NCBI RefSeq assembly: GCF_023256195.1
Contig: NZ_JAGDWX010000032.1
Location: forward strand, 5,781-52,723
Direction of reading: 5' to 3'
Origin: Acidithiobacillus sp.
GTDB taxonomy: Bacteria > Pseudomonadota > Gammaproteobacteria > Acidithiobacillales > Acidithiobacillaceae
DNA: 46,943 bases
In this document: piece by piece, positions 6,887 to 46,942 of the stretch
Layout of the letters: each line of letters opens with the position of its first letter
How positions within the stretch are numbered: position 1 is the stretch's first letter
Made by a program: the position numbers and the translations under genes
Notes under the pieces: model-generated
Databases searched by the model: none
What the model was told of the DNA's origin: nothing
What the model saw: the letters and a program-made list of their open reading frames with translations, nothing else

Positions 6887-7558
6887 TCAGGCTTGGGTCT
6901 CGGTAGCGCGGCTGATCAGGCCCGAGGCGCTGCCCATGAGCACCACGTCGGCTCGCCGCTGCGCAAAGATGCCATTGTCCAGGACGCCCGGGATACTGTT
7001 GATGCGGATCTCCATGGCCAAAGGATCGCTGAGATCGAGGCCCGTCACGTCCAGAATCACATTGCCGTTGTCGGTGGTCACATCCTTGCGCAGGACGGGG
7101 TTGCCGCCCAACTTCACCAGCTGTCGGGCAACGAAACTGCGGGCAAAGGGAATGACCTCCACGGGGAGAGGGAAACTCCCCAAAGCCGCCTTGTCCTTGC
7201 TGGCATCGGCGATGCAGATGAAGCGCCGCGCGGCCGAGGCCACGATCTTCTCGCGGGTGAGCGCGCCGCCGCCGCCCTTGATGAGACGAAAGTGCGGATC
7301 GATCTCATCGGCGCCGTCGATGTAGACGGGGATATCGCCGGTGGCATTGAGATCCAGTACCGGCAGGCCCAAGGACTTGAGCCGGGCCTCGGTGGCGAGA
7401 CTGGAGGCCACATAGCCTTCGACGTGGATCTTGGCGCGCCCCAAGGCGTCGATGAACAGGTTGCTGGTGCTGCCCGTGCCCACGCCCACCACCATGCCAG
7501 GCTGGATGTAGTGAAGCGCCGCTTCCGCAGCCATTTCCTTGAGGGCCTTAACGTCCAT
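6887..7558 (-). CDS. rpiA: Ribose-5-phosphate isomerase A
   Basis: 223 residues (E. coli 219). It interconverts ribose-5-phosphate and ribulose-5-phosphate in the pentose phosphate and Calvin pathways; the latter matters if the host is an autotroph, as I suspect. Motifs are [20 protein letters not shown] (phosphate loop), [20 protein letters not shown] (catalytic Asp and Glu) and [11 protein letters not shown]. The start was set at ATGGACGTTAAG, preceded by AAAGGA at 6 bases. The longer upstream frame is the shadow of the neighbouring gene. The start overlaps the 3' end of the DJ-1-like gene by 11 bases, suggesting coupling. Confidence 0.96.
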
Positions 7559-8300
7559 GTCGCGATCCTTTGTGATGTCGAATTGCTTCCAGCTGCGCCA
7601 CGAAGGCGCGGGTGAGTGCGGCGGCCGAGGCAGGGTTCTGACCACTCAGGAGAAGGCGGTCCTGCACCCAGTGCTCAGACCAAGCCGGTCCCAGATCCGT
7701 TTGAAAACCCATCGCCCGGAGTGCCTCTTCTAGATGGAAGGGCCAGCGACCCGATAGGCGCGTGTTTTCTTCCTCAGCCTTGCTGAAACAGCTTACCGTA
7801 TATCCCGAAAAAGCGCGACGGTCGTCGGTTGTCGTGGCGAGCAGAGCGGCGCTGCCGTGACAGAGGGTAGCGACGGGCGTGCCCCGCGCTTCGCAGTAGC
7901 AGAGCAAGCGCGCAAGCGCCGCGCTTCGTGGCAGGTCCTGCAAGGGCCCGTTGCCGCCGGGGATGAAGAGGCCGCGCAGCGTGTGCAGCAGTTCGTCGTC
8001 CAGGCGACGGATATCCTGGACCGTCGACAGCAGGGGGGCGAGGTCGCGGAGTTCCGCGAGCAAGGCTTCGACACGCTGTGAATCGCCGTCCAGGTTGGCC
8101 GCCTGCACGCTTTCGGGGTCGACCTGGGGTGGCTGGCCGTCGGGTGTGGCGAGGACCACGGGCCAGCCACTGTCTCGCAGGATGTTCCAGGGCGTGAGGA
8201 ATTCCTCCGCCCAGAAACCGCAGTCCAGCAGGTCGCCATCCCGCAGTGTCAGCTGTCGGCTGCTGCTCAGTAATATCAGCACATAGGGTTGGGTTCGCAT
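7548..8300 (-). CDS. DJ-1/PfpI-family class I glutamine amidotransferase-like protein
   Basis: 250 residues of Hsp31/HchA-like type. The fold is marked by [11 protein letters not shown] (the Glu that supports the nucleophile), [13 protein letters not shown] and the nucleophile elbow [12 protein letters not shown] with Cys147-His148. A cap insertion around residues 55-100 is typical of the large chaperone/glyoxalase III subgroup. Family members act as glyoxalase III, deglycase or holding chaperones; the substrate cannot be told here. The usual GGHG is GGNG in this protein. It is the first gene of the set with rpiA and pdxH. The ATG at 8300 lacks an obvious Shine-Dalgarno sequence, and a GTG six codons further in is a possible alternative. 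Confidence 0.8.
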
Positions 8301-15081: not shown

Positions 15082-16306
15082 GCTTCGGCGCGAGCGTACT
15101 GTCGGCACCGTCGCGCGGCCCATGACCAAGGCCGAGAAACAGGCCATCTCCGGGCTGAGCTTCATCTATGTCGTGCGTATGCTGGGACTCTTCATGCTGA
15201 TGCCGGTACTGTCCCTGGACAGTGCGCATCTGCAGGGGAGCTCGCCCGTACTGCTTGGTCTTGCCATAGGTGTCTATGGGCTGGCTCAGGCCGCCCTGCA
15301 GTTTCCCTTCGGCGTTGCCTCGGATCGCTTCGGCCGCAAGCCGATGCTGGTCTTCGGTCTGGTGCTTTTCATCGCCGGCTCCCTGTTGGGCGCCTTTACC
15401 CACAATATCTGGGGAATCGTGCTGGCAAGGGTGCTGCAAGGCGCCGGTGCGGTATCTTCGGTGCTTTTGGCCAGCGCTGGCGACCTCACGGATGAGGCGC
15501 ATCGCACCAAGGCCATGGCAGCCATCGGCGGAAGTATCGCCGTCGCCTACGTGCTGGGTATGGGGCTGGGCCCGGTGGTCTATGGCCTTTCTGGCTTGAC
15601 CGGGGTTTTCCTCGCGGCGGCGGTCTTGGGGGTTCTGGCGTTATTGCCGCTGTGGACCATCATTCCACCCATCCCCGTCCATCCAGAACGACGCATGGGC
15701 GGTTTTCGTGAAGCCTGGGCCATGTTTACCCACGCTCCGGTACTGACGGCCAGCGTTGGCATCTTCATCCTGCAGATGGTGTTGGGTGCTGGCTTCGTGG
15801 TCCTGTCGCCGGAGCTCGTGCGGGCCATGGGGGTGAGTGATACCGGTATCTGGAAAGTGTATCTGCCGGTCATGCTGCTGTCCGTCGCCATCATGGTACC
15901 GCCGGTGATCTATGCCGAGCGTCATCGGCACCACGGCAGCGCTTTGGTGGGCAGCGGCGTCGCCATCGCCTTGGGCGCGCTGTTCATGGGTCTCGAGGCG
16001 GGTCATTTCTGGCCCGTCGCTGTGTCTGCGGTGATCTTCTTCGGCGGCTACAATGTCGCCTCCGCCATCCTGCCATCGATGATGAGTCGCTCCACCAGTC
16101 CGCAACAGCGTGGGGCAGCCAGCGGTGTGTATTCCCTCATGCAGTTTCTCGGCATCTTTGTGGGTGGGGTAGTGGGTGGCTGGGGTCTGGGCCTCGTCGG
16201 TGTGTCTGGGGTTTTCTATATCTTGACCGCCATTGGTTTGCTGCTGGCGCTGCAAAGTCTGGGCAGTGGACGTTTGACCGTATTGCTGGCGCCGGAACAG
16301 CGCTGA
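15068..16306 (+). CDS. MFS permease of the oxidase operon (YajR/CtaT-like)
   Basis: 412 residues with twelve hydrophobic helices and the MFS loop 2-3 signature FGVASDRFGRKPMLVFG. VLARVLQGAGAVSSVLLA and AMAAIGGSIAVAYVLGMGLGP on helices 4-5 are typical of the drug/proton antiporter type. A permease gene after ctaA and ctaB is known in acidithiobacilli as ctaT; its substrate is unknown, perhaps copper or a heme precursor needed for oxidase assembly (inference). The frame overlaps the end of ctaB. An ATG at 15122, just before KAEKQAISGLSF, is an alternative start. A strong terminator follows. Confidence 0.85.
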   Translation: MASSELRRERTVGTVARPMTKAEKQAISGLSFIYVVRMLGLFMLMPVLSLDSAHLQGSSPVLLGLAIGVYGLAQAALQFPFGVASDRFGRKPMLVFGLVLFIAGSLLGAFTHNIWGIVLARVLQGAGAVSSVLLASAGDLTDEAHRTKAMAAIGGSIAVAYVLGMGLGPVVYGLSGLTGVFLAAAVLGVLALLPLWTIIPPIPVHPERRMGGFREAWAMFTHAPVLTASVGIFILQMVLGAGFVVLSPELVRAMGVSDTGIWKVYLPVMLLSVAIMVPPVIYAERHRHHGSALVGSGVAIALGALFMGLEAGHFWPVAVSAVIFFGGYNVASAILPSMMSRSTSPQQRGAASGVYSLMQFLGIFVGGVVGGWGLGLVGVSGVFYILTAIGLLLALQSLGSGRLTVLLAPEQR

Positions 16307-36382: not shown

Positions 36383-36431
36383 ACCGTGCTCCTCCGTGAC
36401 CAGCTTCAGTCTAGCACGATGGGCTCGGGGT

Positions 36432-36458
36432 AAAAAAAGACGGGCTTGTGAGCCCGTC
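36432..36458 (-). terminator. Terminator of unit 1
   Basis: Minus strand GACGGGCT, loop CACA, AGCCCGTC, T7. Also sits just upstream of the orn start (50 bases), so it could insulate orn from the array. Confidence 0.85.
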
Positions 36459-36617
36459 CAATAGCCGCAAAACAACCGCTACAAAACTCGCCTGGACACC
36501 GTACTCCTTACCTGCGTCTTTCCCTTCGGATGCTACGCTCCCTTTCATCTTGAGGCTTGGGCCAGATCTCCAATGCCCATCCAGAATATCCCTGCCGTGT
36601 TTCCAGATTATTTCCGA
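36432..36617 (-). ncRNA. Candidate small RNA, unit 1 of a tandem array
   Basis: Read on the minus strand. It begins with an upstream box (36617-36598, ~20 nt, TCGGAAATAATCTGGAAACA), has a mid segment with GGCCCAAGCCTCAAGATG and GGGAGCG near 36563-36535 that recurs in unit 2, then a shared 3' segment (TAGCGGTTGTTTTGCGGCTA TTG, 36481-36459) and the terminator stem GACGGGCT/AGCCCGTC with T7. The box-to-terminator length is 186 nt, so a transcript starting after the box would be about 150 nt. A short frame starting at the ATG near 36549 is present but not kept in unit 2, so I favour a non-coding RNA. The box might be promoter or regulator site. Confidence 0.6.
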
Positions 36618-36650
36618 TAACGCCTGTTTTGCTGCCCCGAGAGCCGGGAT

Positions 36651-36677
36651 AAAAAAAGACGGACTCAGGAGTCCGTC
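36651..36677 (-). terminator. Terminator of unit 2
   Basis: Minus strand GACGGACT, loop CCTG, AGTCCGTC, T7. It differs from unit 1 by a paired (compensatory) change in the stem. Confidence 0.88.
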
Positions 36678-36833
36678 CAATAGCCGCAAAACAACCGCTA
36701 AAACTTCTAGGGTCGATCCCCTGTCCTTTCTCGGGGCTTGACCGTGTCTATCGCTCCATCACATTTGAGGTTTGGGTCACTAAGCCTCACTGCGCACTAC
36801 TATGCTATCTTAATGTTTCGAGAATATTTCCGG
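36651..36833 (-). ncRNA. Candidate small RNA, unit 2 of a tandem array
   Basis: Minus strand. Upstream box CCGGAAATATTCTCGAAACA (36833-36814), then a possible -10 TAAGAT, then GACCCAAACCTCAAATG (around 36780-36763) and GGAGCG, the same order as in unit 1. The shared 3' segment TAGCGGTTGTTTTGCGGCTATTG (36700-36678) is identical to unit 1. Its terminator stem is GACGGACT/AGTCCGTC with T7. Length from box to terminator is 183 nt, almost equal to unit 1. The ATG after the mid segment meets a stop at once, which argues against coding. Confidence 0.62.
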
Positions 36834-37008
36834 CTGATCGCCCATTGGGTAGAGTCACTGTCTGCGGCTTCGTCCGCCGTTTTCCGGGGTGGTCTCAGCT
36901 TGGGTTCCGTCGCGGGATGGATACCACAATGGTGCCTCGATAGGTCCGGGCATGGATTGGGGAGGCGCAGGTGAGGGCTCTCGTGGGTTTTGGGATGGTC
37001 GCCGGAAC
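36834..37008. other. Spacer between sRNA-like units 2 and 3
   Basis: 175 bases with no supported gene. On the minus strand it carries GGAACCCAAGCTGAGACC, faintly like the mid segment of units 1 and 2, but no terminator follows. It may be a decayed further unit. Confidence 0.3.
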
Positions 37009-37035
37009 AAAAAAGTGACGGGCGCAAGGCCCGTC
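37009..37035 (-). terminator. Terminator of unit 3
   Basis: Minus strand GACGGGC, loop CTTGC, GCCCGTC, AC, T6. The loop sequence is different from units 1 and 2; the fold is kept. Confidence 0.8.
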
Positions 37036-37142
37036 CAATAGCCGCAAAACAACGAGAACCGCGTGGATGGCCGCTCCGAAGCGTCATCATCCGACGCGAA
37101 TGTGTGGATTATTCCCGAGAATTGTTTCAGAATTATTTCCGG
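37009..37142 (-). ncRNA. Candidate small RNA, unit 3 of a tandem array
   Basis: Minus strand. Upstream box TCCGGAAATAATTCTGAAAC (37143-37124), then about 60 nt with CGGAGCGGCCATCC, and the shared segment GTTGTTTTGCGGCTATTG (37053-37036). Terminator stem GACGGGC/GCCCGTC (loop CTTGC) then AC and T6. At 134 nt it is shorter than units 1 and 2 and lacks their mid segment. It is transcribed away from the response regulator gene, with the box between the two. Confidence 0.55.
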
Positions 37143-37168
37143 ATCCCTGGGAGAGGAGTCTGAAGCGC

Positions 37169-37915
37169 GTGGCCGTGGTACTCATCGTCGATGACGACCA
37201 ACGCTTGGCGGCTTTGCTGCAGGATTTTCTGCAGGCAGAAGGGATGGTGGTGCGAGTCGCCAGTAACGGCCGAGAGATGTGGCAGCAGCTGGCGGCCGAA
37301 CCCGCGGACGTCGTGGTGATGGACTGGATGCTGCCCGGCGGCCAGGACGGCATCAGTCTGGTGCGGGAGCTGCGCGCGAAGTCAGGGCCGCCCATCCTTA
37401 TGCTTTCGGCCAGAGGCGAGGACGAAGAACGCATTCACGGGCTGGAGAGCGGGGTCGAGGATTATCTTGCCAAGCCCTTCAACGCTCGAGAGTTGCTGGC
37501 GCGATTGAAGGTTTTGCTGCGTCGGGCCGGTCGTGGCGACCCTGGCCGCTTACTGCACTTTGGTCCCTTCGTTTTGGATCTGGTGGAGCGACGCCTGTCG
37601 CGCGATGGTGAGGTCGTGGAACTCAGTCCTGCCGAGATGGACCTGCTACTGGTATTTGCCCAACGACCCAATCGAGCCCTCAGCCGGGACCAACTGCTAC
37701 AGGCCCTCGGAGGAGATGACGAGGGACGATTCGATCGCAGCATCGATGTTCGGGTGACACGGCTGCGCAAACTGATTGAAGAAAATCCGCGCCAACCGCA
37801 GTTTCTCCTGACAGAGCGTGGCGTGGGCTACCGCTTCACGCCAAGAGACGCGAAGGCGGCGAGCCACGCCGAGATGGGGTCGGCCGACGATACCCCTAAG
37901 GGCATTGCCGGCTGA
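37169..37915 (+). CDS. OmpR-family response regulator (orphan)
   Basis: 248 residues from a GTG about 10 bases after GAGAGGAG. Receiver domain (about 1-118): acidic pocket D8-D10, phosphoacceptor D52 in VVMDWMLPGGQDG, S80 in LMLSARGED and K102 in YLAKPFNA. The C-terminal winged-helix domain (about 130-228) has LSPAEMDLLLVFAQRPNRALSRDQLL, then RFDRSIDVRVTRLRKLIEEN and FLLTERGVGYRF. No histidine kinase gene is next to it. It is convergent with a TonB-dependent receptor gene and divergent from the sRNA-like array, whose third box lies in its promoter region, so autoregulation or control of the array is plausible. An upstream ATG at 37067 lies inside the repeat region and was not chosen. Confidence 0.9.
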   Translation: MAVVLIVDDDQRLAALLQDFLQAEGMVVRVASNGREMWQQLAAEPADVVVMDWMLPGGQDGISLVRELRAKSGPPILMLSARGEDEERIHGLESGVEDYLAKPFNARELLARLKVLLRRAGRGDPGRLLHFGPFVLDLVERRLSRDGEVVELSPAEMDLLLVFAQRPNRALSRDQLLQALGGDDEGRFDRSIDVRVTRLRKLIEENPRQPQFLLTERGVGYRFTPRDAKAASHAEMGSADDTPKGIAG

Positions 37916-37933: not shown

Positions 37934-40159
37934 TTAGAAGCTTGCCGTGACGCTGCCGTAGAAGGAGCGCGGTGCCTGAAAGTTGAAGGTATCGCCGGGA
38001 GAGGGCTGCGCGCTCTTGACCTTGGCCTTGTACGCGCCGCGTTCATCCGTCAGATTGTAGACATCGAAGCCAAGCCGCAGCTTCTTGACCCGCGGCAGGG
38101 GCGAGACGATGTCATAGCCGAGCTTCAAATTGAGATTGTTGAGGGGTGCCAAGGGGTACTGGGCATCGTCACGAACGTATTGACGACCGGTACGTTTGTA
38201 AACCAAGGCGAGGTGATAGGGCCCCATATCGTACAGCAGAGCTGCGGCCGCCGTGTAGCGCGGCGCTCCCGATATGGTCAAGTTGGTCGCCTTGGATTTG
38301 GCGCTGTTGATGGAGCCGTTGGCGTAGATGGCAAGCCCATTGCCGAGGGCGTAAGTCGCTTCGCCCTCGACCCCTTTGTAGATGACCCCGCCCTGGTTGT
38401 AGTAGTAGGGATCGCTCAAAGGCGAGTTTGGATCGATGGCATAGCGGTTGTTGAAATCGATGTAGTAGAGATCGGCATCCCAGACCCAGTGCTCGGATTG
38501 GTGGTTGAAACCCAGCTGATAATTGGTAGTGGTCTCCGGCTGCAGACGATTTTTCTCGCCATTGGCCGTCTGCAATACGTCCAGCGGCGGTGCGAGAAAG
38601 CCTTTGGCAAACTGCAGATAAGCCGAGTTTTCAGGATTGAGGCGATAATTTACGGTCAGGAAAGGCAGAGTGCTATGGTAGCTCTGTTGATAGAAGGCTG
38701 GCAGTCGCGAGTTCTGGTTGATGAGTGCGCTCATGCTGCGGGTGAAACGTAGGTATTTGATGCCGGGTGTGATGGTGAGGGACTCCATCGGGCGCCAAGC
38801 GAACTGAGCAAAGGGTTGCAGGTTGCGCGTTCCAGAGTGCTGATCGAACTGGATGTTGTTTATGCCGGGAAGGATTCCGGGCACCGGCTTCTGATCGTAA
38901 TTGGGCGCACCCGTCAGAAGATCGTAATCCACACGCCCACGCTGGGTCGCTCCCGTTTCTACCCACAGACCCGCCGTGGCGCGACCAAAAGACCAATCCT
39001 TGTGTAGGCGCAGAATGTTGCCAACCAGCCAATAGCCGTTGAGTTTGTCGTAGCCCGGTATTCCTAGGGATTTCTTGCCGTTGCCAAGGATCACCGCACC
39101 GAGTCCCGCCAGGGGATCCTTGGCCGAGCTGGACAGGGTACTGTTGTGATAGAAGTAGTAGTACACCGTATCGTCCAGCGAAAAACCCTCCCCGAGGGTG
39201 CTCTGCAACCGCAGATAACTGAAGCCCGTATGCTTTCGCGTACGGTTGTAGGCGTAATAGTTGGCCATGAGGGGATTGTTGCCGAGCGCGAAATCCTTGC
39301 CGAAACGCTGGGCCAGAGCTTCCGTCAACTGCCCTTTGGTGGCATCGGACTGATAATACGTATTCCAATTGAAGGTGGTGAGCAGGGTCACCAGAGTGTT
39401 CTCGCCCAGGGGTACGAGCATCTTGAAGAGGACGTTGTCGCCTTTCACGGGCGAGAAGCTCTGATAGCCATCGCTGCTGTTGTGTTGATAATTGACGAGG
39501 TAGCGTGCCCCGCCCAACCACGGCAGCGCTCCGCTATTGGCGCGGGCCTTGAAGAGCAGGGTATTGTCGGAACCGTAAAGGAAGCCCATCTTGCCCGAGG
39601 GTGTGGCGCTGGGATTTGGGGAAAAGAGATTGACGGAGCCGCCAAAGGTGGCGTAGCCGAGGTTGTCGGCGTTGCCGGGACCGCGCTCCACGACCACCCG
39701 ATCGATGGTGGAAGCGGGGAAGTAGGCGGTGGAGTGGTGGGTAAAGTCGTTGGTATCGCCGAAGGGGATGCCGTCGTAGGTCATGTTGAACTCTCCGTCG
39801 CCGAATCCGCGAAGGTTGAGCTTGGACTCCCCAATACCGGGTCCATTGCTGTTGAAGCCCCCGGAAACACCCGGTGCAAGATTTGCAATCTGATTGAAAT
39901 CGGCATCCCCCAGTACGGCGTTGTCGATGAAGCGGGAGTCGATGATCGTGGACGGCTCCGTGGCAGAGAGCGGAGCCTTGCCCGGAGCCAGGGCCGGAGC
40001 ACTCTGCGGCCCATAATGCGCCATGGAAGGCGCCCCCCCACCGTCCGGGGTAGAGTCCACCGCCGTGACGGTCCCGAGGGACTGGCTCTCGGCCAGTGCC
40101 GTGCCCGGCAGGAAACTAAGAACCACGGCAATTCTCAGGGCTTTCATACTTAGTTGCAT
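37934..40159 (-). CDS. TonB-dependent outer-membrane receptor
   Basis: 741 residues with a signal peptide ending PGTALA. Plug domain about 45-195: STIIDSRFIDNAVLGDADF, KLNLRGFGDGEFNMTYDGIPFGDTN, STIDRVVVERGPGNADNLGYATFGGSVNLFS (seen over residues ~140-190). The rest is a 22-strand barrel ending in FYGSVTASF with the terminal Phe of outer-membrane proteins. Transports a large or scarce ligand using TonB energy. It follows tonB by 51 bases and is the last gene of the locus. An ATG four codons in is an alternative start. Ligand unknown; metal-phosphate or organic phosphate is suggested by the adjacent phosphoesterase. Confidence 0.92.
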   Translation of the reverse strand: MQLSMKALRIAVVLSFLPGTALAESQSLGTVTAVDSTPDGGGAPSMAHYGPQSAPALAPGKAPLSATEPSTIIDSRFIDNAVLGDADFNQIANLAPGVSGGFNSNGPGIGESKLNLRGFGDGEFNMTYDGIPFGDTNDFTHHSTAYFPASTIDRVVVERGPGNADNLGYATFGGSVNLFSPNPSATPSGKMGFLYGSDNTLLFKARANSGALPWLGGARYLVNYQHNSSDGYQSFSPVKGDNVLFKMLVPLGENTLVTLLTTFNWNTYYQSDATKGQLTEALAQRFGKDFALGNNPLMANYYAYNRTRKHTGFSYLRLQSTLGEGFSLDDTVYYYFYHNSTLSSSAKDPLAGLGAVILGNGKKSLGIPGYDKLNGYWLVGNILRLHKDWSFGRATAGLWVETGATQRGRVDYDLLTGAPNYDQKPVPGILPGINNIQFDQHSGTRNLQPFAQFAWRPMESLTITPGIKYLRFTRSMSALINQNSRLPAFYQQSYHSTLPFLTVNYRLNPENSAYLQFAKGFLAPPLDVLQTANGEKNRLQPETTTNYQLGFNHQSEHWVWDADLYYIDFNNRYAIDPNSPLSDPYYYNQGGVIYKGVEGEATYALGNGLAIYANGSINSAKSKATNLTISGAPRYTAAAALLYDMGPYHLALVYKRTGRQYVRDDAQYPLAPLNNLNLKLGYDIVSPLPRVKKLRLGFDVYNLTDERGAYKAKVKSAQPSPGDTFNFQAPRSFYGSVTASF

Positions 40160-40210
40160 TGGCTTAGACGCTCCTTCTCGATCAGCGGAATTTCTGTGTT
40201 TCCCTTGCCT

Positions 40211-40915
40211 TCAGTCGTTGCGCAGCACGAACTGCACCACTACGTCCAGGCTGTAGGTTTTGTTCTCGAGTTCTTTAGGTGTGGGCGGCAGACGCGCGCT
40301 GCGTACGGCCGCCAGAGCCGCGCTGTCGAAGGCCTCCAGACTGCCTTTGCGGAGGATGCGCAGATCCGTTACCGCGCCGTTACGCAAGGTGAAGTGCACC
40401 AGGACTTGGCCCTGTTCTCCCAGCATTCGGGCGGCCTCGGGAAAGTGCACAGCGGCCTGGATAGCGCCTTTCACCTGGGCGAGGTAGTCGGCCTTGACTG
40501 CGGGATTCACGGGAGCGGGAGGCGGGGGCGGCGTCTCCGGCACCGGTTCCGGGGGCGGTGCTTGCACCGGGCTGGGGAGAGGGCTCGGCGGCAGCGTCTC
40601 GCGCACCGGCTTGGGCGTCGGAGCCGGTTTGGGCGTGGGCTTCGGCGTGGGCTTTGGCACCGGCTTGGGCGTGGGTTTAGGCGGCGTCGGAGTGGGCTTG
40701 GGGGGCGGCGGCGTCGGTGGCAGCGGTTTGGGCTCCTGCACGAGCTGCAGCTGCATGGGTGGGAGGGCAGCGGGGGGTGGAGAGGCGTGCTGGGTCTCCC
40801 AGAGGATCAGGGCGAGCAGTATCGCCTCCACCACGATGGCGAGAACCCAGGCTTTCCGCTGCGTGCGCGGCTCGACACACAGTTCTGCCGGGAGCTGGCG
40901 AAAGTCGACGGCCAT
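40211..40915 (-). CDS. tonB: TonB-family energy transducer
   Basis: 234 residues. One N-terminal anchor helix (KAWVLAIVVEAILLALILW, about 22-40), a long Pro/Lys-rich spanning region (about 50-140, repeats of KPTPKP and PPPP), and the C-terminal TonB domain with ARMLGEQGQVLVHFTLRNGAV and SARLPPTPKELE. Transmits proton-motive energy from ExbBD to outer-membrane receptors. It starts 3 bases after the phosphoesterase stop and sits between that gene and a receptor gene. Confidence 0.93.
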   Translation of the reverse strand: MAVDFRQLPAELCVEPRTQRKAWVLAIVVEAILLALILWETQHASPPPAALPPMQLQLVQEPKPLPPTPPPPKPTPTPPKPTPKPVPKPTPKPTPKPAPTPKPVRETLPPSPLPSPVQAPPPEPVPETPPPPPAPVNPAVKADYLAQVKGAIQAAVHFPEAARMLGEQGQVLVHFTLRNGAVTDLRILRKGSLEAFDSAALAAVRSARLPPTPKELENKTYSLDVVVQFVLRND

Positions 40916-40918
40916 GAC

Positions 40919-43753
40919 TCAGTCCTCCCGTGTGCTTGCGGCAGCGAAATACGCAGCGGGATAGGGTCTATCCATCAGACCTTTCCACAGGATGCGGTTG
41001 TAGCGGTCCGCATCCAGGCGATCCTCACGACTGAAATCCATGCCGGCCGCGGCCTGCGCCCAATAGTGGCGATCGTGGCGAGGAGCCAGCGCCGCTGAAT
41101 CGCTACAACGTGTAGCCTCAGCCGGGAAGTGCTGTGCGAGAGGTGTGCCCAGGAGATAAGGTGAGGGACAGGCCCGAAAATCCCACTGGGCCGCGCGTGT
41201 GTCGAAGACCTCCACCATGGGCCGCGCCGCGGCCACCAGGGCGTTCGTCGGCGGAATGCCGAGGACCTCGCTGATGGTACGCAGCACGCTCAGGGTGTTG
41301 TAAGGCGCGGAGATGACGCGGCCGTGAGCGACGTAAGGCCCGACGACGAGGGCGATGCTACGGTGAGCATCCACGTGATCGGGGCCATCCTGGGCATCGT
41401 CCTCCAGCACGAAAATGAGAGTGTCTTTGGCAAAGGGACTCTGCGCTACGCGCTCTAAAAGCAGACCCAAGGCGTAGTCGTTGTCCGCGACCTGACGCTC
41501 CGGTGTGTCGATGCCGTCCATGGCCTCCGAGAAGGAGCCGGTGTGATCCCCCGGCAGACGTACCAGGGAGAGCCGGGGCAGCTGCCCCTGTTTTCCGTAA
41601 TCGCGAAATTCCCGCTCCCACTCCTTGAATCGCCAGAAATCCGGATAGGCGCTGTCAAAGCCCCGGAAGTAGACGTCCGTGATGGGGGCGAGCTCGGGGT
41701 TGGCGGGCACACCTTGCGGCTTCTGCTCAGCAAAGGCGTTACGGGAGGCCTTTAGGCTGCTGTCTTCGGCGCGGTGATAGAGACTGAGGAAGAACCCGTA
41801 ATTTCGCACCGAAAGACCCTGGCGCAGGGCCGCACTCCAGAGGTAGCCTTTTTGTTTTTCGCCATCCATGGCGTCGGGAGCAGCGACGTCGGCGGTACCA
41901 GGCAGAAGATCCGGGTCCGCAGGCAGGCGGGGGTCCGCCGCACGGCGGGCCGCGCCACTGAGGCCGACATTCACGCCGCGATTGCTGCCTTCCCAGTCGT
42001 AGGAACCGCCGCCACCGCTATAGGCCATGGGCAGGACTTTCACGCTGAGATAGGACTCGCGGCCGGCCGTGGACCAGGCCCAGCCGTTCCCACTTACCTC
42101 CCCCGTCACGAGAAAATTGTCCAGGAGTACCATCTGCTCAGCCGCTTGGTGCTGATTGGGGGTGGTCCGGCGCGGGAATTCCGTGAGTTTCGGGTCACCG
42201 TTGCCCCGCGGGATATCTCCGAACACCTGATCGTAGCTGCGATTTTCCTTGATCACGTAGATGACGTGGCGAATGTGGCGGCGCAGAAAGGCCATGGTCG
42301 CCTGCTCGTCGGCACTGAGGGCAGCGGCCGGATGATTGTTCTGCCAGGTCTGGCGGGTCAGACCCACCAGGGTTTCGGGATCCTGTGGCAGCGGGAGCTT
42401 CTGCAGTCCGGACTCCACCTTCTGGAGGATGTACTGATTGGCACGAGCCTGCACCGGAGAGCTCTCCAGACAGCCGCGGTAGCGTCCGTAACAGAGTCCG
42501 GTGTTCGGGCCCGGCATGGTCTTGTTGTTGACTACCCAGAGGGTCCTGTCGTCGCTGCCGACGGCGAGATCCTGCGGTGACCAGGCCGTTGGCAGGAGGG
42601 CGAGGCTCTCAGGCCGGTCCTTGTCGAGACCCAGCACGGCGACGGCGTTCATGCGGCCGATGCTGGCATACAGCCGCTTGCCGTCCCGAGACATGGCGAG
42701 GCTGTTGGCGGACCAGCCAAGATTCTTGGCGCCGACGAAACCCGCTGCCTGCAATTCCGGCGCGAGGCTTGCCGGCAAAAGAGGCGTCTCGCCGAGCAGC
42801 TGAAAGCGAGCGAGGTCCACCACCGCGATGCTGTCCCGATTGTCCTGCGCAACGTATAGGCGCCCTCGGGCCGTATCTACCAGCATGCGTCCCGGGTTGC
42901 CAGGCACGGAGAGGCGCTGAAGGATCTGCGCGCCACCGGGTGTCACGTGCAAAAGTACGAGTTCGCGATCCCGGAGGCTGGAGACGATGGCCTGATCCGC
43001 CTGGCTCCAGACCACCGCAAAAGGATACTCCCCACCCGCCACGCCGCTTTTTCCCTGGCTTGGCCCGGGGCGCAGATCCTGCTCCCAGAGGATGCGGCGA
43101 TTTTCGGTGTCGATGAGGCTTACGGAATCGTTGAAGGCGTTGCAGACGAGGAGATAGCGGCCAGTGCCGTCCAGGGCGAGACCGGCGGCCAGCGGTTTGA
43201 CGCCGATGCCGAGGCCTTTGCCTTGGTGGCCAAGCGCGATGGCAGGCCCGGCAAAGCGCCAGGCAGCCTTGTCCCCCTCGCGGCGAAGGATCAGTACGCC
43301 GTCTTTTACCCCAGTGCTCAGGTAAAGGGTTCGTTCATCGGGGCTCAGCGCCATACCCTCGAAGCTATCAAAGAGGGGGATGGACTGGGTCAAAGCGGGC
43401 ATCTGCGCGGAGAGTTGCAGGCGCAAAAGGTGCTGATTCGAGAGTTTCCGGTCGGTTCTGCCGGGAGCCTCATCGACATTCTTGTAGCCTGCGCCCAATA
43501 CGAGGGCTTCGGCCCCGCCGTTCACGAACAGTATGCGACTCGCCCCCCGCAGGGCCAAACCGCGATTACTGCCGTCTGCGGGCAGGCGCCAGTAGGCACT
43601 ACCCGGCGCGGCCAGGGGCGCGAGCCGCTGACCACTGGACAGGAGCGTCGCGGAATGCGCCGAGGGGGAGGCCCCTTCGCGCGCCAAAGCGGGCGCTTGC
43701 GTAAGGCAAGCGAGCAGAACCACCGACACGATCACCGAACTTCGGTGCGACAT
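40919..43753 (-). CDS. Secreted beta-propeller/phosphoesterase fusion protein
   Basis: 944 residues with a signal peptide (MSHRSSVIVSVVLLACLTQAPALA). Residues ~60-420 are YVTN-type beta-propeller blades (MALSPDERTLYLST, LALDGTGRYLLVCN, LYVAQDNRDSIAVVDL, LAMSRDGKRLYASIG). Residues ~495-930 are a phosphoesterase domain (PF04185 type, alkaline phosphatase superfamily): HVIYVIKENRSYDQVFGD near 496-513 and EDDAQDGPDHVDAHRSIALV near 784-803 hold the metal-binding and catalytic residues. Members include phospholipase C and acid phosphatases. It probably acts in the periplasm or at the surface. It lies 16 bases after exbD and 3 before tonB, so it is part of the uptake operon. Exact substrate unknown. 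Confidence 0.85.
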   Translation of the reverse strand: MSHRSSVIVSVVLLACLTQAPALAREGASPSAHSATLLSSGQRLAPLAAPGSAYWRLPADGSNRGLALRGASRILFVNGGAEALVLGAGYKNVDEAPGRTDRKLSNQHLLRLQLSAQMPALTQSIPLFDSFEGMALSPDERTLYLSTGVKDGVLILRREGDKAAWRFAGPAIALGHQGKGLGIGVKPLAAGLALDGTGRYLLVCNAFNDSVSLIDTENRRILWEQDLRPGPSQGKSGVAGGEYPFAVVWSQADQAIVSSLRDRELVLLHVTPGGAQILQRLSVPGNPGRMLVDTARGRLYVAQDNRDSIAVVDLARFQLLGETPLLPASLAPELQAAGFVGAKNLGWSANSLAMSRDGKRLYASIGRMNAVAVLGLDKDRPESLALLPTAWSPQDLAVGSDDRTLWVVNNKTMPGPNTGLCYGRYRGCLESSPVQARANQYILQKVESGLQKLPLPQDPETLVGLTRQTWQNNHPAAALSADEQATMAFLRRHIRHVIYVIKENRSYDQVFGDIPRGNGDPKLTEFPRRTTPNQHQAAEQMVLLDNFLVTGEVSGNGWAWSTAGRESYLSVKVLPMAYSGGGGSYDWEGSNRGVNVGLSGAARRAADPRLPADPDLLPGTADVAAPDAMDGEKQKGYLWSAALRQGLSVRNYGFFLSLYHRAEDSSLKASRNAFAEQKPQGVPANPELAPITDVYFRGFDSAYPDFWRFKEWEREFRDYGKQGQLPRLSLVRLPGDHTGSFSEAMDGIDTPERQVADNDYALGLLLERVAQSPFAKDTLIFVLEDDAQDGPDHVDAHRSIALVVGPYVAHGRVISAPYNTLSVLRTISEVLGIPPTNALVAAARPMVEVFDTRAAQWDFRACPSPYLLGTPLAQHFPAEATRCSDSAALAPRHDRHYWAQAAAGMDFSREDRLDADRYNRILWKGLMDRPYPAAYFAAASTRED

Positions 43754-43769
43754 GTGCAACCTCACTGGC

Positions 43770-44168
43770 TCAGCGCGAGCTCTCAAGACGGGAAGCGAGA
43801 CCGATGGCGGTGACGCCGGCCTTTCGGCAGCTGTCCATGACGTGGACCAGGGCGTCGACATCGGCATTTTTGTCGGCGGCGATGGTCACTTGCAGGTTCT
43901 TGGGATCGTGCTGACGCAGGTAATCCTCAAGGGCGCTTGGGCTGTAGGTTTTGCCGTCGACCTCGGCATCGCCATTGACCTGCAGGTTGATGACGAGCTT
44001 GGGCTTGGGCAGTTCCTGGGCGGTGCTTGAGCCCGGCATCTGGGCTGGTAGACCTTTGTCGGGGATCATGTGGATGGTCACCATGATGAAGAACACCAGC
44101 AGAAATAGCATGATGTCGATCATCGGGATGATCTCGATGCGCGCTTTTTTGACCTCGAGATACTGCAC
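43770..44168 (-). CDS. exbD: Biopolymer transport protein ExbD
   Basis: 132 residues. The membrane helix carries the essential Asp (D18) in IIPMIDIMLFLLVFFIMVT. A Pro/Lys-rich linker and a periplasmic domain follow (LVINLQVNGDAEVDGK, LQVTIAADKNADVDALVHVMD, AGVTAIGLAS). With ExbB it converts proton flow into TonB motion. It begins 3 bases after exbB. Confidence 0.95.
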   Translation of the reverse strand: MQYLEVKKARIEIIPMIDIMLFLLVFFIMVTIHMIPDKGLPAQMPGSSTAQELPKPKLVINLQVNGDAEVDGKTYSPSALEDYLRQHDPKNLQVTIAADKNADVDALVHVMDSCRKAGVTAIGLASRLESSR

Positions 44169-44171
44169 GGA

Positions 44172-44849
44172 TCAGGCCTCCTGCGCCGCGTAGTACACGG
44201 GTTTGGCCTCGTTGGCCGTCAGGGCGTGGCTATGGTCCAGACCTTCCAGACGGTTGACCAGCATGTTGCGCAGGGTTTCCATCTGGTGGACGACGAGGCG
44301 CATGCGGTTGTGCAGCCCGTTGAAGGTCACCAAGCCGATGATGGCGATGACAAGGCCGGCGGCGGTGGCGAGCAGGGCCTCGGCGACGTTACCGGTGATG
44401 GCGGTGGGGTTGTTGGCGGCGTCCCCCAGCACCTGGAAGGCGTGGAACATGCCGACGATGGTGCCGAGCAGGCCCAAAAGAGGGGCGAGGGTCACGGCAG
44501 TGTCGAGAATCCAGAGGCGTTTGTCGAGGCTTGGGACCTGGCGCATCACCATTTCCTGGAGGACTTCCGAAAGGCGGGCGCTGTCGCGGATCTGAGGAAA
44601 GCGCAGGGGGACCTCGAGCAGCGCCCGGAAGGGATAGGGGCTACGCTCGGCGATGGGTGCCAGGGTGCTGGGCTTGAGGTCGGGGGCGGAGTCCAGTGCT
44701 GCGGCGATCTGCTCGCCCTGCTGCACCATGCGGTTGATGAAGAGAAAGCGCTCGAAACTCACCCAGAGGACGAGCAGGAGGATGAGGGGCATGATGAAGA
44801 GGATCCCGCCCGATTCCTGAGCGATGGTGAAAAGTGCGTGCATATCCAT
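44172..44849 (-). CDS. exbB: Biopolymer transport protein ExbB
   Basis: 225 residues with three helices of the MotA/TolQ/ExbB type: ESGGILFIMPLILLLVLWVSFERFLF, a second in LWILDTAVTLAPLLGLLGTIVGMFHAF, and a third in GNVAEALLATAAGLVIAIIGLVTFNGL, the last two framing the proton channel. It starts after AAAGG; an ATG two codons further in is possible. The upstream 59 bases hold a 25-base palindrome. It is the second visible gene of the TonB locus. Confidence 0.94.
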   Translation of the reverse strand: MDMHALFTIAQESGGILFIMPLILLLVLWVSFERFLFINRMVQQGEQIAAALDSAPDLKPSTLAPIAERSPYPFRALLEVPLRFPQIRDSARLSEVLQEMVMRQVPSLDKRLWILDTAVTLAPLLGLLGTIVGMFHAFQVLGDAANNPTAITGNVAEALLATAAGLVIAIIGLVTFNGLHNRMRLVVHQMETLRNMLVNRLEGLDHSHALTANEAKPVYYAAQEA

Positions 44850-44866
44850 GGCAATACCTTTCTCAG

Positions 44867-44891
44867 ACGGGATACCTCAGAGGTATCCCGT
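44867..44891 (-). promoter_or_regulatory. 25-base palindrome between receptor gene and exbB
   Basis: ACGGGATACCTC, one base, GAGGTATCCCGT, perfect 12-base arms. No T-run follows. It lies between the receptor stop and the exbB start. It could be an operator for an internal promoter or an intercistronic mRNA stem that lets exbBD be expressed apart from the receptor. Confidence 0.55.
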
Positions 44892-44908
44892 AGGGTGGAT
44901 GGATGGAC

Positions 44909-46942
44909 TCAGAAGCTCGCGTCCAGTGTGGCGTAGACGTTGGCGGGCAGATTCAGCTTCAGGTTGGGATTGGCGTTGCTGCCCGAGTAACTCTGGATCC
45001 AGGTGCGATCGAAGAGGTTATTGACGTACACGCCCAGGGAGACCTTCTTGAGGCCAAAGCCGCCGCTGCCGAGCGCCATGTTGTTGAAGGTGTAGCGCAA
45101 GCTCGCGTTGGTGTAGAAGCGACTGCCCAGAGGCAAGAACTTCCCACCCAGGTTGTAGTAGGCGTTGCCGATCTCGTTGAAGCCGACCGTCGCCCGCAGA
45201 CCTCGGTCGTGATAGATGAAACCAATGGATTCGGTGTGGTGCGGGGCGTAGGGGAAGGGTTGTCCCTGCGATTTCAGGCGAGCGTCCAGAATGCCCAGAT
45301 TGGCGTAAGCGCTGAACTGGTCGTTGAGGATGAAGCTATTCTGCCAGGAAATGCCCTGATTAATGGCCTTGCCCGCATTGGCGAGCACAGTCTGGTTGAA
45401 GGAGCCGACCTGCACGGTAGTCGACAGAATATAATTGCGGAAATCCACCCGGAAGAGATCCAGTTCGCCTTTCCAGAAGCCGAGATTCCAGACCGTGCCG
45501 AGATCGTAGGTGTACGCCTTCTGCGGCGCCAGAGAAGGATTGAAGACGCCGGAGTAGAACTGATTGTAGGCGGGGGGGTTGGCATTCTGGGTGAAGTTGG
45601 CAAAGACGTTGACGCCATCCATGACCCGATAGTTGAGGCCCACCGACGGCAGCACCGCGTGGAAATTCGCGTTGAAGACCCCTGGCTTATTCTGTGCTAA
45701 GGCGACCTCATCGCGGAAATCGCGCTGAGCGTAGAGATATTTGACGCCCGCGGTCAGCTTGAGCGCCTGGGTCGGCTTGTAATTGAAGACGATGAAAGGC
45801 TCGTAGGTATCGGTCTTGACCGGCTCGATGTAGGTCGAACCGAGATAGGTGTTGGCCTGATTGTAATACTGAGCATCGTGCATGGTGTTGTTGTGGTTGA
45901 ACCAGAAGCCCAGCTCGGTATCCACGGGTCCCAGCGGGAAGAGCAGCTTGGCGATGTTTCCCCAGCGATGGGTGTTGTTGACGCTGTTGCGTAGCAATAC
46001 CTGGTTGGCAGCTGGCGAGGTACGCTGTACCGTACCTTGAGGAGTGAGGAGCGTTTGGGGGAAAGTGGTCGCACCGGCGCCGAAGCCGTTGCCGTAGTAG
46101 TAATAGAGCTGCTCCGAGAACTTGACTTTTCCTACTTCACCTTCGTACTTGCCATAGGCTACCCAGTTGAGGTAGCGGTTATAATTATAGCCGGTGTAGA
46201 AAGTGTTCGGTTTGCCATTAGCGAGAAATGGATCGCTCGTATAAGCGTTATAATTTTCTCCATATTTCGCGATATCGGCCGCCGTGGCACCGTTGTAATA
46301 ATTGAAGCGCTGATTGTTCTGAGTGAAGAACAGGGTCAGGGCTCCGGGGCCGATCTGGCTCACGGATTTGAAGAGGAATTGCGTCTGGATAGAGCCGTTG
46401 TTCAGGAAATACCCGTCCCGACGATTCTGATTGACATAGAGCCAGGCCGAGGTGGGCGCGACATTCTTCAGGAAGAGTCCGGTATTGATCAGTCCGCCGT
46501 AGTTGTACTTGCCGAAGGAACCGCCGCCAACCATGGGCCGCACGAAGAAGTAGGGGGACGGCTTCAGGCTGTAGGTCTCGATGGAGCCGCCGAAGCTTGC
46601 AAGCCCCGGGATGGCCGCAGACTGGGCACCGGGGTAGTACTTGGTACCGGCGATGAGCACCGAGGGGATGAATTCATTGGAATAATAGGTGTAACTGTCG
46701 TTGTCGTTGAGTGGTATGCCATCGAGGGTGAAGTTGATGAGACTCTTGCTGAAACCATTGATGTAGACGTCGTCCCCGTCCATACTGTCGCCACTGCTGA
46801 CGACCACGGCATTGGGCAGGTTCTGCAAGGACTGGGTGTAGGAATCCGTCGGGGTGAGCATCTCGTACTGCCCCCGGGTGATGGTGGTTTCGGCGTTGGT
46901 GGTGTCCTGCTTGAACTTCTGGATCTGCTGGATATCGCTGGG
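44909..46942 (-). CDS. TonB-dependent outer-membrane receptor, N-terminally cut by the window
   Basis: About 678 residues visible; the frame runs off the right edge, so the signal peptide and probable TonB box lie beyond. Plug segments are QNLPNAVVVSSGDSMDGDDVYINGF, LINFTLDGIPLNDND and IPGLASFGGSIETYSL; the barrel is rich in Tyr/Asn and ends in VYATLDASF with terminal Phe. The plug pattern (TRGQYEMLTPTDS, then IQQIQKFK upstream) is that of a receptor. It is the first visible gene of the locus and is unlike the receptor at 37934 in sequence, so two ligands or ligand forms may be used. Confidence 0.9.
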   Translation of the reverse strand, partial: PSDIQQIQKFKQDTTNAETTITRGQYEMLTPTDSYTQSLQNLPNAVVVSSGDSMDGDDVYINGFSKSLINFTLDGIPLNDNDSYTYYSNEFIPSVLIAGTKYYPGAQSAAIPGLASFGGSIETYSLKPSPYFFVRPMVGGGSFGKYNYGGLINTGLFLKNVAPTSAWLYVNQNRRDGYFLNNGSIQTQFLFKSVSQIGPGALTLFFTQNNQRFNYYNGATAADIAKYGENYNAYTSDPFLANGKPNTFYTGYNYNRYLNWVAYGKYEGEVGKVKFSEQLYYYYGNGFGAGATTFPQTLLTPQGTVQRTSPAANQVLLRNSVNNTHRWGNIAKLLFPLGPVDTELGFWFNHNNTMHDAQYYNQANTYLGSTYIEPVKTDTYEPFIVFNYKPTQALKLTAGVKYLYAQRDFRDEVALAQNKPGVFNANFHAVLPSVGLNYRVMDGVNVFANFTQNANPPAYNQFYSGVFNPSLAPQKAYTYDLGTVWNLGFWKGELDLFRVDFRNYILSTTVQVGSFNQTVLANAGKAINQGISWQNSFILNDQFSAYANLGILDARLKSQGQPFPYAPHHTESIGFIYHDRGLRATVGFNEIGNAYYNLGGKFLPLGSRFYTNASLRYTFNNMALGSGGFGLKKVSLGVYVNNLFDRTWIQSYSGSNANPNLKLNLPANVYATLDASF

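Follow-up and report, generated by a model that had tools for sequence, protein, structure and literature searches.

The six-gene TonB locus found in this Acidithiobacillus genome (G000) is best explained as a part of the Pho (phosphate-starvation) regulon, in which TonB-dependent uptake serves to collect phosphorus esters or complexes of ferric phosphate and a phosphoesterase in the periplasm sets the phosphate free; we assign this reading a probability of roughly 0.6. A link to phosphate had been proposed in an earlier note on the same DNA, and it is strengthened here by tandem Pho boxes found on orthologous and paralogous operons.

Organization of the locus

The six genes lie on the minus strand of the window, i.e., the whole analysed stretch of 46,943 nucleotides, in the order TonB-dependent receptor (TBDR), exbB, exbD, propeller-phosphoesterase, tonB, TBDR. 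This order and the single strand, both given in the earlier note, are borne out by the coordinates of the open reading frames (ORFs) and by Pfam, which backs each of the identities. The upstream TBDR (44909..46942; PF07715 and PF00593) is incomplete at its 5' end. It is followed by exbB (44172..44849; PF01618 MotA_ExbB, 4.6e-28), exbD (43770..44168; PF02472, 1.8e-27), the gene of a predicted exported bifunctional protein, a YncE-like beta-propeller joined to a phosphoesterase of the alkaline-phosphatase superfamily (40919..43753; PF04185), a proline-rich tonB with the TonB_C domain (40211..40915; PF03544, 5e-14), and the downstream TBDR (37934..40159; PF07715 and PF00593).

Measured from the ORF coordinates, the gaps are 3 nt between exbB and exbD (44169-44171), 16 nt between exbD and the phosphoesterase gene, 3 nt between the latter and tonB (40916-40918), and 51 nt between tonB and the downstream receptor (40160-40210), exactly as previously listed; the gap between the upstream receptor and exbB, missing from that list, is 59 nt. 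The 16-nt gap corresponds to the phosphoesterase start at 43753, which is preferred because the longer ORF, starting at 43867, would run into exbD. No terminator-like site is seen on the coding strand in the intergenic gaps of the operon. This anatomy agrees with the proposal that a dedicated TonB-ExbBD set is physically tied to an exported phosphoesterase. To call the uptake locus self-contained was, however, an overstatement, as none of the six genes encodes an inner-membrane transporter.

The window ends together with contig C10 (52,723 bases), hence the upstream receptor lacks ~55 N-terminal residues (the signal peptide and the TonB box) and its promoter; no adjoining contig carrying this promoter was found among the contigs of the genome. 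The intact orthologue from another species of the genus (G001; L046:13433-15631) is 89% identical to the window receptor. The two receptors of the window are only ~24% identical to each other and thus differ strongly, as claimed before; their divergence is suggestive of two ligands, the further step that had been taken from it.

The propeller-phosphoesterase

The N-terminal part of the enzyme (residues ~40-410) is confidently modelled as a YncE-like propeller, and the C-terminal half contains the phosphoesterase domain (~460-850), with PF04185 matching residues 714-834 at 44.7 bits against the curated cut-off of 23. The structure model of the whole enzyme is poor in the catalytic half; therefore, the C-terminal half was folded separately with 29 sequences, yielding pLDDT 74 and pTM 0.83. 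The top Foldseek matches of the latter model are 8k3g and 2d1g (phospholipase C and AcpA folds; E ~7e-9, TM ~0.4).

Two motifs, KENRSYD (E503, N504) and EDDAQDGPDHV (D785, D786), are candidate metal ligands. All four residues are invariant in 11 homologues, and alignment of the profile of these homologues with Francisella AcpA (2d1g) places them at E43, N44, D386, and D387, which we take to be the metal ligands of AcpA. Hence the metal-site residues are intact in the alignment. The candidate nucleophile S561 adjoins the invariant W560; this position is occupied by Ser or Thr in most homologues and by Ala in a paralogue from contig C25 of the same genome.

Judging from the sequence and the model, the C-terminal half is predicted to be an alkaline-phosphatase-superfamily phosphoesterase of the AcpA/phospholipase C type. 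It resembles this family (PF04185; 2d1g, 8k3g) in the fold of the catalytic domain and in the E-N and D-D metal-ligand motifs, but differs in the fusion with the N-terminal YncE-like propeller and in the weak sequence identity. The start at 43753 yields a Sec-type signal (by eye), and so the enzyme, previously described as secreted, is predicted to be exported; this part of the description stands, whereas release beyond the periplasm does not follow from the signal. A beta-propeller phytase was also considered and rejected, since no phytase model matched and the propeller is YncE/YVTN-like.

Gene neighbourhood in related genomes

All six genes are retained in G001 in full synteny, which extends to flanking genes (response regulator, orn, and LLM-like); the identity is 81-94%, except for TonB (69%). 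The six-gene order is hence not confined to one strain, which was to be checked by a neighbourhood search; among the species examined, the exact order is seen in two only, this genome and G001, both from one genus. The latter observation could mean that, in one strain, a phosphatase gene came to lie beside an iron TonB locus by accident. We consider such an accident very improbable: it is contradicted by the syntenic locus of G001, by the family-wide association, and by the conserved promoter, both described below.

Other genera swap or add enzymes (the propeller-phosphoesterase, PhoD, AcpA-like), so that the receptor and the energiser are constant and the phosphatase is variable. In G003 and G018, a gene for an AcpA-like Tat phosphatase, fragmentary in G018, comes first, and TBDR, exbB, exbD, tonB, a further TBDR, the propeller enzyme, and one more tonB follow; in G003, PhoD and a histidine kinase come after. 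The order in G009 is enzyme, exbD, tonB, PhoD. G007, from another genus, has TBDR, exbB, exbD, tonB, and PhoD, the latter matching PhoD of G003 and G009 at 66-68%, and no propeller enzyme at this operon within the stretch read. The genome under study itself contains, on contig C37, a paralogous TBDR-propeller enzyme-MFS cluster with exbB-exbD-TBDR nearby.

In six genomes, a TBDR barrel is encoded no more than 5 kb away from 10 of the 15 propeller-phosphoesterase genes, the expectation being ~4% for each gene (binomial tail 3.5e-11, a value that overstates independence, as the six genomes are related). The pairing of the enzyme with TBDRs is non-random and occurs far above chance across the family. 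Beyond the family, a sample of 397 other genomes of the phylum contains orthologues of the enzyme in 4, and their short flanks show no recognisable TonB genes; the enzyme appears solitary in Methylacidiphilum, Caulobacteraceae, Desulfobacteraceae, and others. As the orthologue usually seems to stand alone outside the family, the enzyme probably does not need TonB genes.

Several further copies were observed. Contig C3 of this genome (L013 5369-7204) ends inside a propeller-phosphoesterase gene of the C37 type (residues 34-672 aligned), and contig C25 starts with residues 833-973 of a propeller-phosphoesterase (L010 2-442); these may be two pieces of the same split gene. A solitary paralogue (L010 3244-6054) features a lipobox-like N-terminus (VAGC, by eye), with no Pho box found upstream. 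In G007, a TBDR gene is separated from a propeller-phosphoesterase gene by transposase-like ORFs (by eye; L084, G007:C1:2114000-2127000, at 7016-8142), in an apparent insertion into the pair.

Pho boxes and regulation

The sense strand of the G001 operon promoter (L046 ~15731-15771, minus strand) reads ATGTCAC-aaaa-ATGTCAT-caaa-GGTTCAT-caaa-GTGTCAC, followed by ATTTCTCTGCTAGAGT. These are four 7-bp units with 11-bp spacing and a fixed -10, and the predicted element is arranged like a promoter activated by PhoB. When the upstream regions of G001 and G007 are compared, the Pho box and the -10 are among the best conserved blocks. For the window operon, PhoB control would follow by orthology, because its own promoter lies beyond the contig end.

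Genomes were scanned with the motif TGTCAYN5TGTCAY, the reversed motif serving as the control. This yields 13 sites in this genome, 14 in G001, 3 in G018, and 13 in G007, and none with the control in all four. The non-TonB sites of this genome are at pstS, pstB-phoU, a second pstS, and an olsB-like gene, and also before an MFS gene (best match phosphate:H+ symporter-like) and genes for an OprD-like porin, an ABC permease, and an OmpA-family protein. On the TonB side, the sites are at a TBDR (C36), TBDR-phosphoesterase, MFS, a PhoB-like regulator gene, and exbB-exbD-TBDR. The matrix built from the eight non-TonB boxes of this genome only reaches 23.8 at the operon of G001, compared with a maximum of 12.9 over 20 shuffled 20-kb sequences; the operons of G003 and G018 score 17-18, and several paralogous operons 21-36. 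Pho boxes are absent from two TBDR genes outside clusters of the TBDR-phosphoesterase type and were not found at the related loci L054 (G014), L057 (G004), L085 (G023), L084 (G007), and C25 (G000).

The Pho-boxed paralogous locus on contig C37 (L011, 3964-15998) comprises TBDR, propeller-phosphoesterase, MFS, the PhoB-like gene, and exbB-exbD-TBDR. Here, six box-like units are seen at exbB-exbD-TBDR, and Pfam detects only the DNA-binding domain in the product of the PhoB-like gene. Also on C37 (L070, G000:C37:97400-100600), the Pho-boxed olsB-like gene would encode an ornithine-lipid acyltransferase, suggesting lipid replacement in low phosphate.

The ornithine-lipid box bears on whether the propeller-phosphoesterase serves uptake at all. 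It could be an envelope or surface-layer protein that, e.g., remodels lipids or surface polymers when phosphate is scarce and is merely co-regulated with the TonB genes; a likewise Pho-boxed lipid gene, the solitary enzymes outside the family, and a superfamily that takes in phospholipases C and sulfatases are all in line with this. Such a role seems quite unlikely given the recurrent TBDR pairing (10/15) and, in this genus, the position of the enzyme gene between exbD and tonB, with gaps of 16 and 3 nt.

TBDRs are classically iron transporters, and the closest solved relatives of the window receptors are FecA, which carries iron citrate, and PqqU/YncD, a PQQ carrier, both matches being weak. 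The weak similarity to FecA and the classical role of the receptors favour iron uptake with phosphate as a chelator: the phosphatase would free phosphate, Fe(III) would be bound, and the receptors would import the ferric phosphate, with Fur and PhoB co-regulating the genes. Although this hypothesis has been published for homologous Acidithiobacillus clusters (Osorio et al., 2008; PMC2631029), we find it rather unlikely for the present locus. The G001 promoter has the four-unit Pho box and the -10, yet no Fur-like site, as the best match in a scan with a simple 19-mer consensus is 10/19 (shuffle p ~0.94), and the other boxed genes are phosphate genes. In nine further stretches, the same type of scan gives at best two 14/19 matches; since it is a simple consensus count, a divergent Fur site may still be present. 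The two readings may also be combined, in that ferric organophosphate would be taken up under Pho control. Thus, of the phosphate or metal scavenging suggested earlier, the phosphate part is supported by the Pho boxes, and the metal (ferric-phosphate) part finds no counterpart in a Fur-like site of the G001 promoter.

Proposed mechanism

Under the Pho-regulon reading, low phosphate would cause PhoB to activate the operon, in the window strain by orthology. ExbB, ExbD, and TonB would energise both receptors, and these would import phosphorus ligands through the outer membrane, namely organic phosphate esters, perhaps as ferric complexes. Cleavage of these ligands by the exported propeller-phosphoesterase might take place in the periplasm, or else at the surface before entry, and the freed phosphate would pass to phosphate transporters (Pst and MFS) with genes at other loci. 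We infer the ligand, the substrate, the activity of the enzyme, the place where it acts, and the direction and order of these steps.

A broader generalisation is conceivable, although tentative: the acidophilic Acidithiobacillaceae may have a non-Bacteroidetes counterpart of the Pus system, that is, PhoB-controlled TonB operons in which the receptor and ExbBD-TonB stay constant and the phosphoesterase is interchangeable (propeller-PF04185, PhoD, or AcpA). Such operons would import intact organophosphate or ferric organophosphate at low pH for cleavage in the periplasm.

Relation to known systems

In acidophiles, TonB receptors mostly carry the annotation of receptors for iron siderophores. This is puzzling, since dissolved iron surrounds the cells and classical siderophores are not known to be produced by them. 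Should a large number of such receptors belong to the Pho regulon, phosphorus scavenging would answer part of the puzzle.

The TonB-phosphatase cluster type has been known since 2008, and the loci of the window and of G001 represent a variant of it. The FecA3-ExbBDTonB-SLP-PhoD cluster was described in A. ferrooxidans, A. thiooxidans, and A. caldus near a PhoB-like regulator, with uptake of metallophosphate (ferric phosphate) hypothesized and Fur control predicted (Osorio et al., 2008, BMC Microbiol 8:203; PMC2631029). Judged by the cluster description, the likeness consists in a TBDR, ExbB-ExbD-TonB, a propeller protein (named surface layer protein there), and a phosphatase, with a PhoB-like regulator gene in the vicinity. 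In contrast to the FecA3 cluster, neither the window nor the G001 cluster has a PhoD gene, both have a second TBDR, and the propeller protein itself bears the PF04185 domain.

In Flavobacterium, PusCD and Pi-inducible TonB-dependent transporters are encoded beside phosphatases, and their induction by Pi depletion was measured (PMC8115612). The common feature is TonB-dependent importers adjoining phosphatases; however, those are SusC/SusD pairs of Bacteroidetes with measured induction, whereas none of the six genes considered here is SusD-like, and induction is predicted. In the PUMA3 region of P. aeruginosa, expression of exbB2D2-tonB4 in low phosphate requires PhoB (PMC4971064), so that a TonB-ExbBD set is tied to PhoB there as well, but the region contains genes of two-partner secretion and sigma-VreI, and no propeller-phosphoesterase is described in it. 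The Pho-box evidence appears to be new, as no earlier report of Pho boxes on such loci was found in the openly readable literature; we claim no priority.

Response regulator gene and adjacent tandem repeats

An OmpR/PhoB-type response regulator gene (37067..37915, plus strand, probable start 37169; PF00072 and PF00486) is convergent with the operon; its NCBIfam OmpR/PhoB matches are below the cut-off. No histidine kinase gene adjoins it within the window; in G003, a histidine kinase gene (L047:14311-15519) adjoins a relative of this regulator.

Between orn and the response regulator gene (36426-37141, minus strand) there are three tandem units, candidate tandem small RNAs, with no match in Rfam. 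Each ends in a near-identical terminator hairpin, a 59-nt repeat at 36426, 36645, and 37003, and the 19-nt repeat TGTTTCCAGATTATTTCCG (plus strand) is found at 36598, 36814, and 37123, ~100-150 nt upstream of the hairpin. The core 23-mer is present in 1-4 copies in all eight family genomes searched, the reversed control giving 0.
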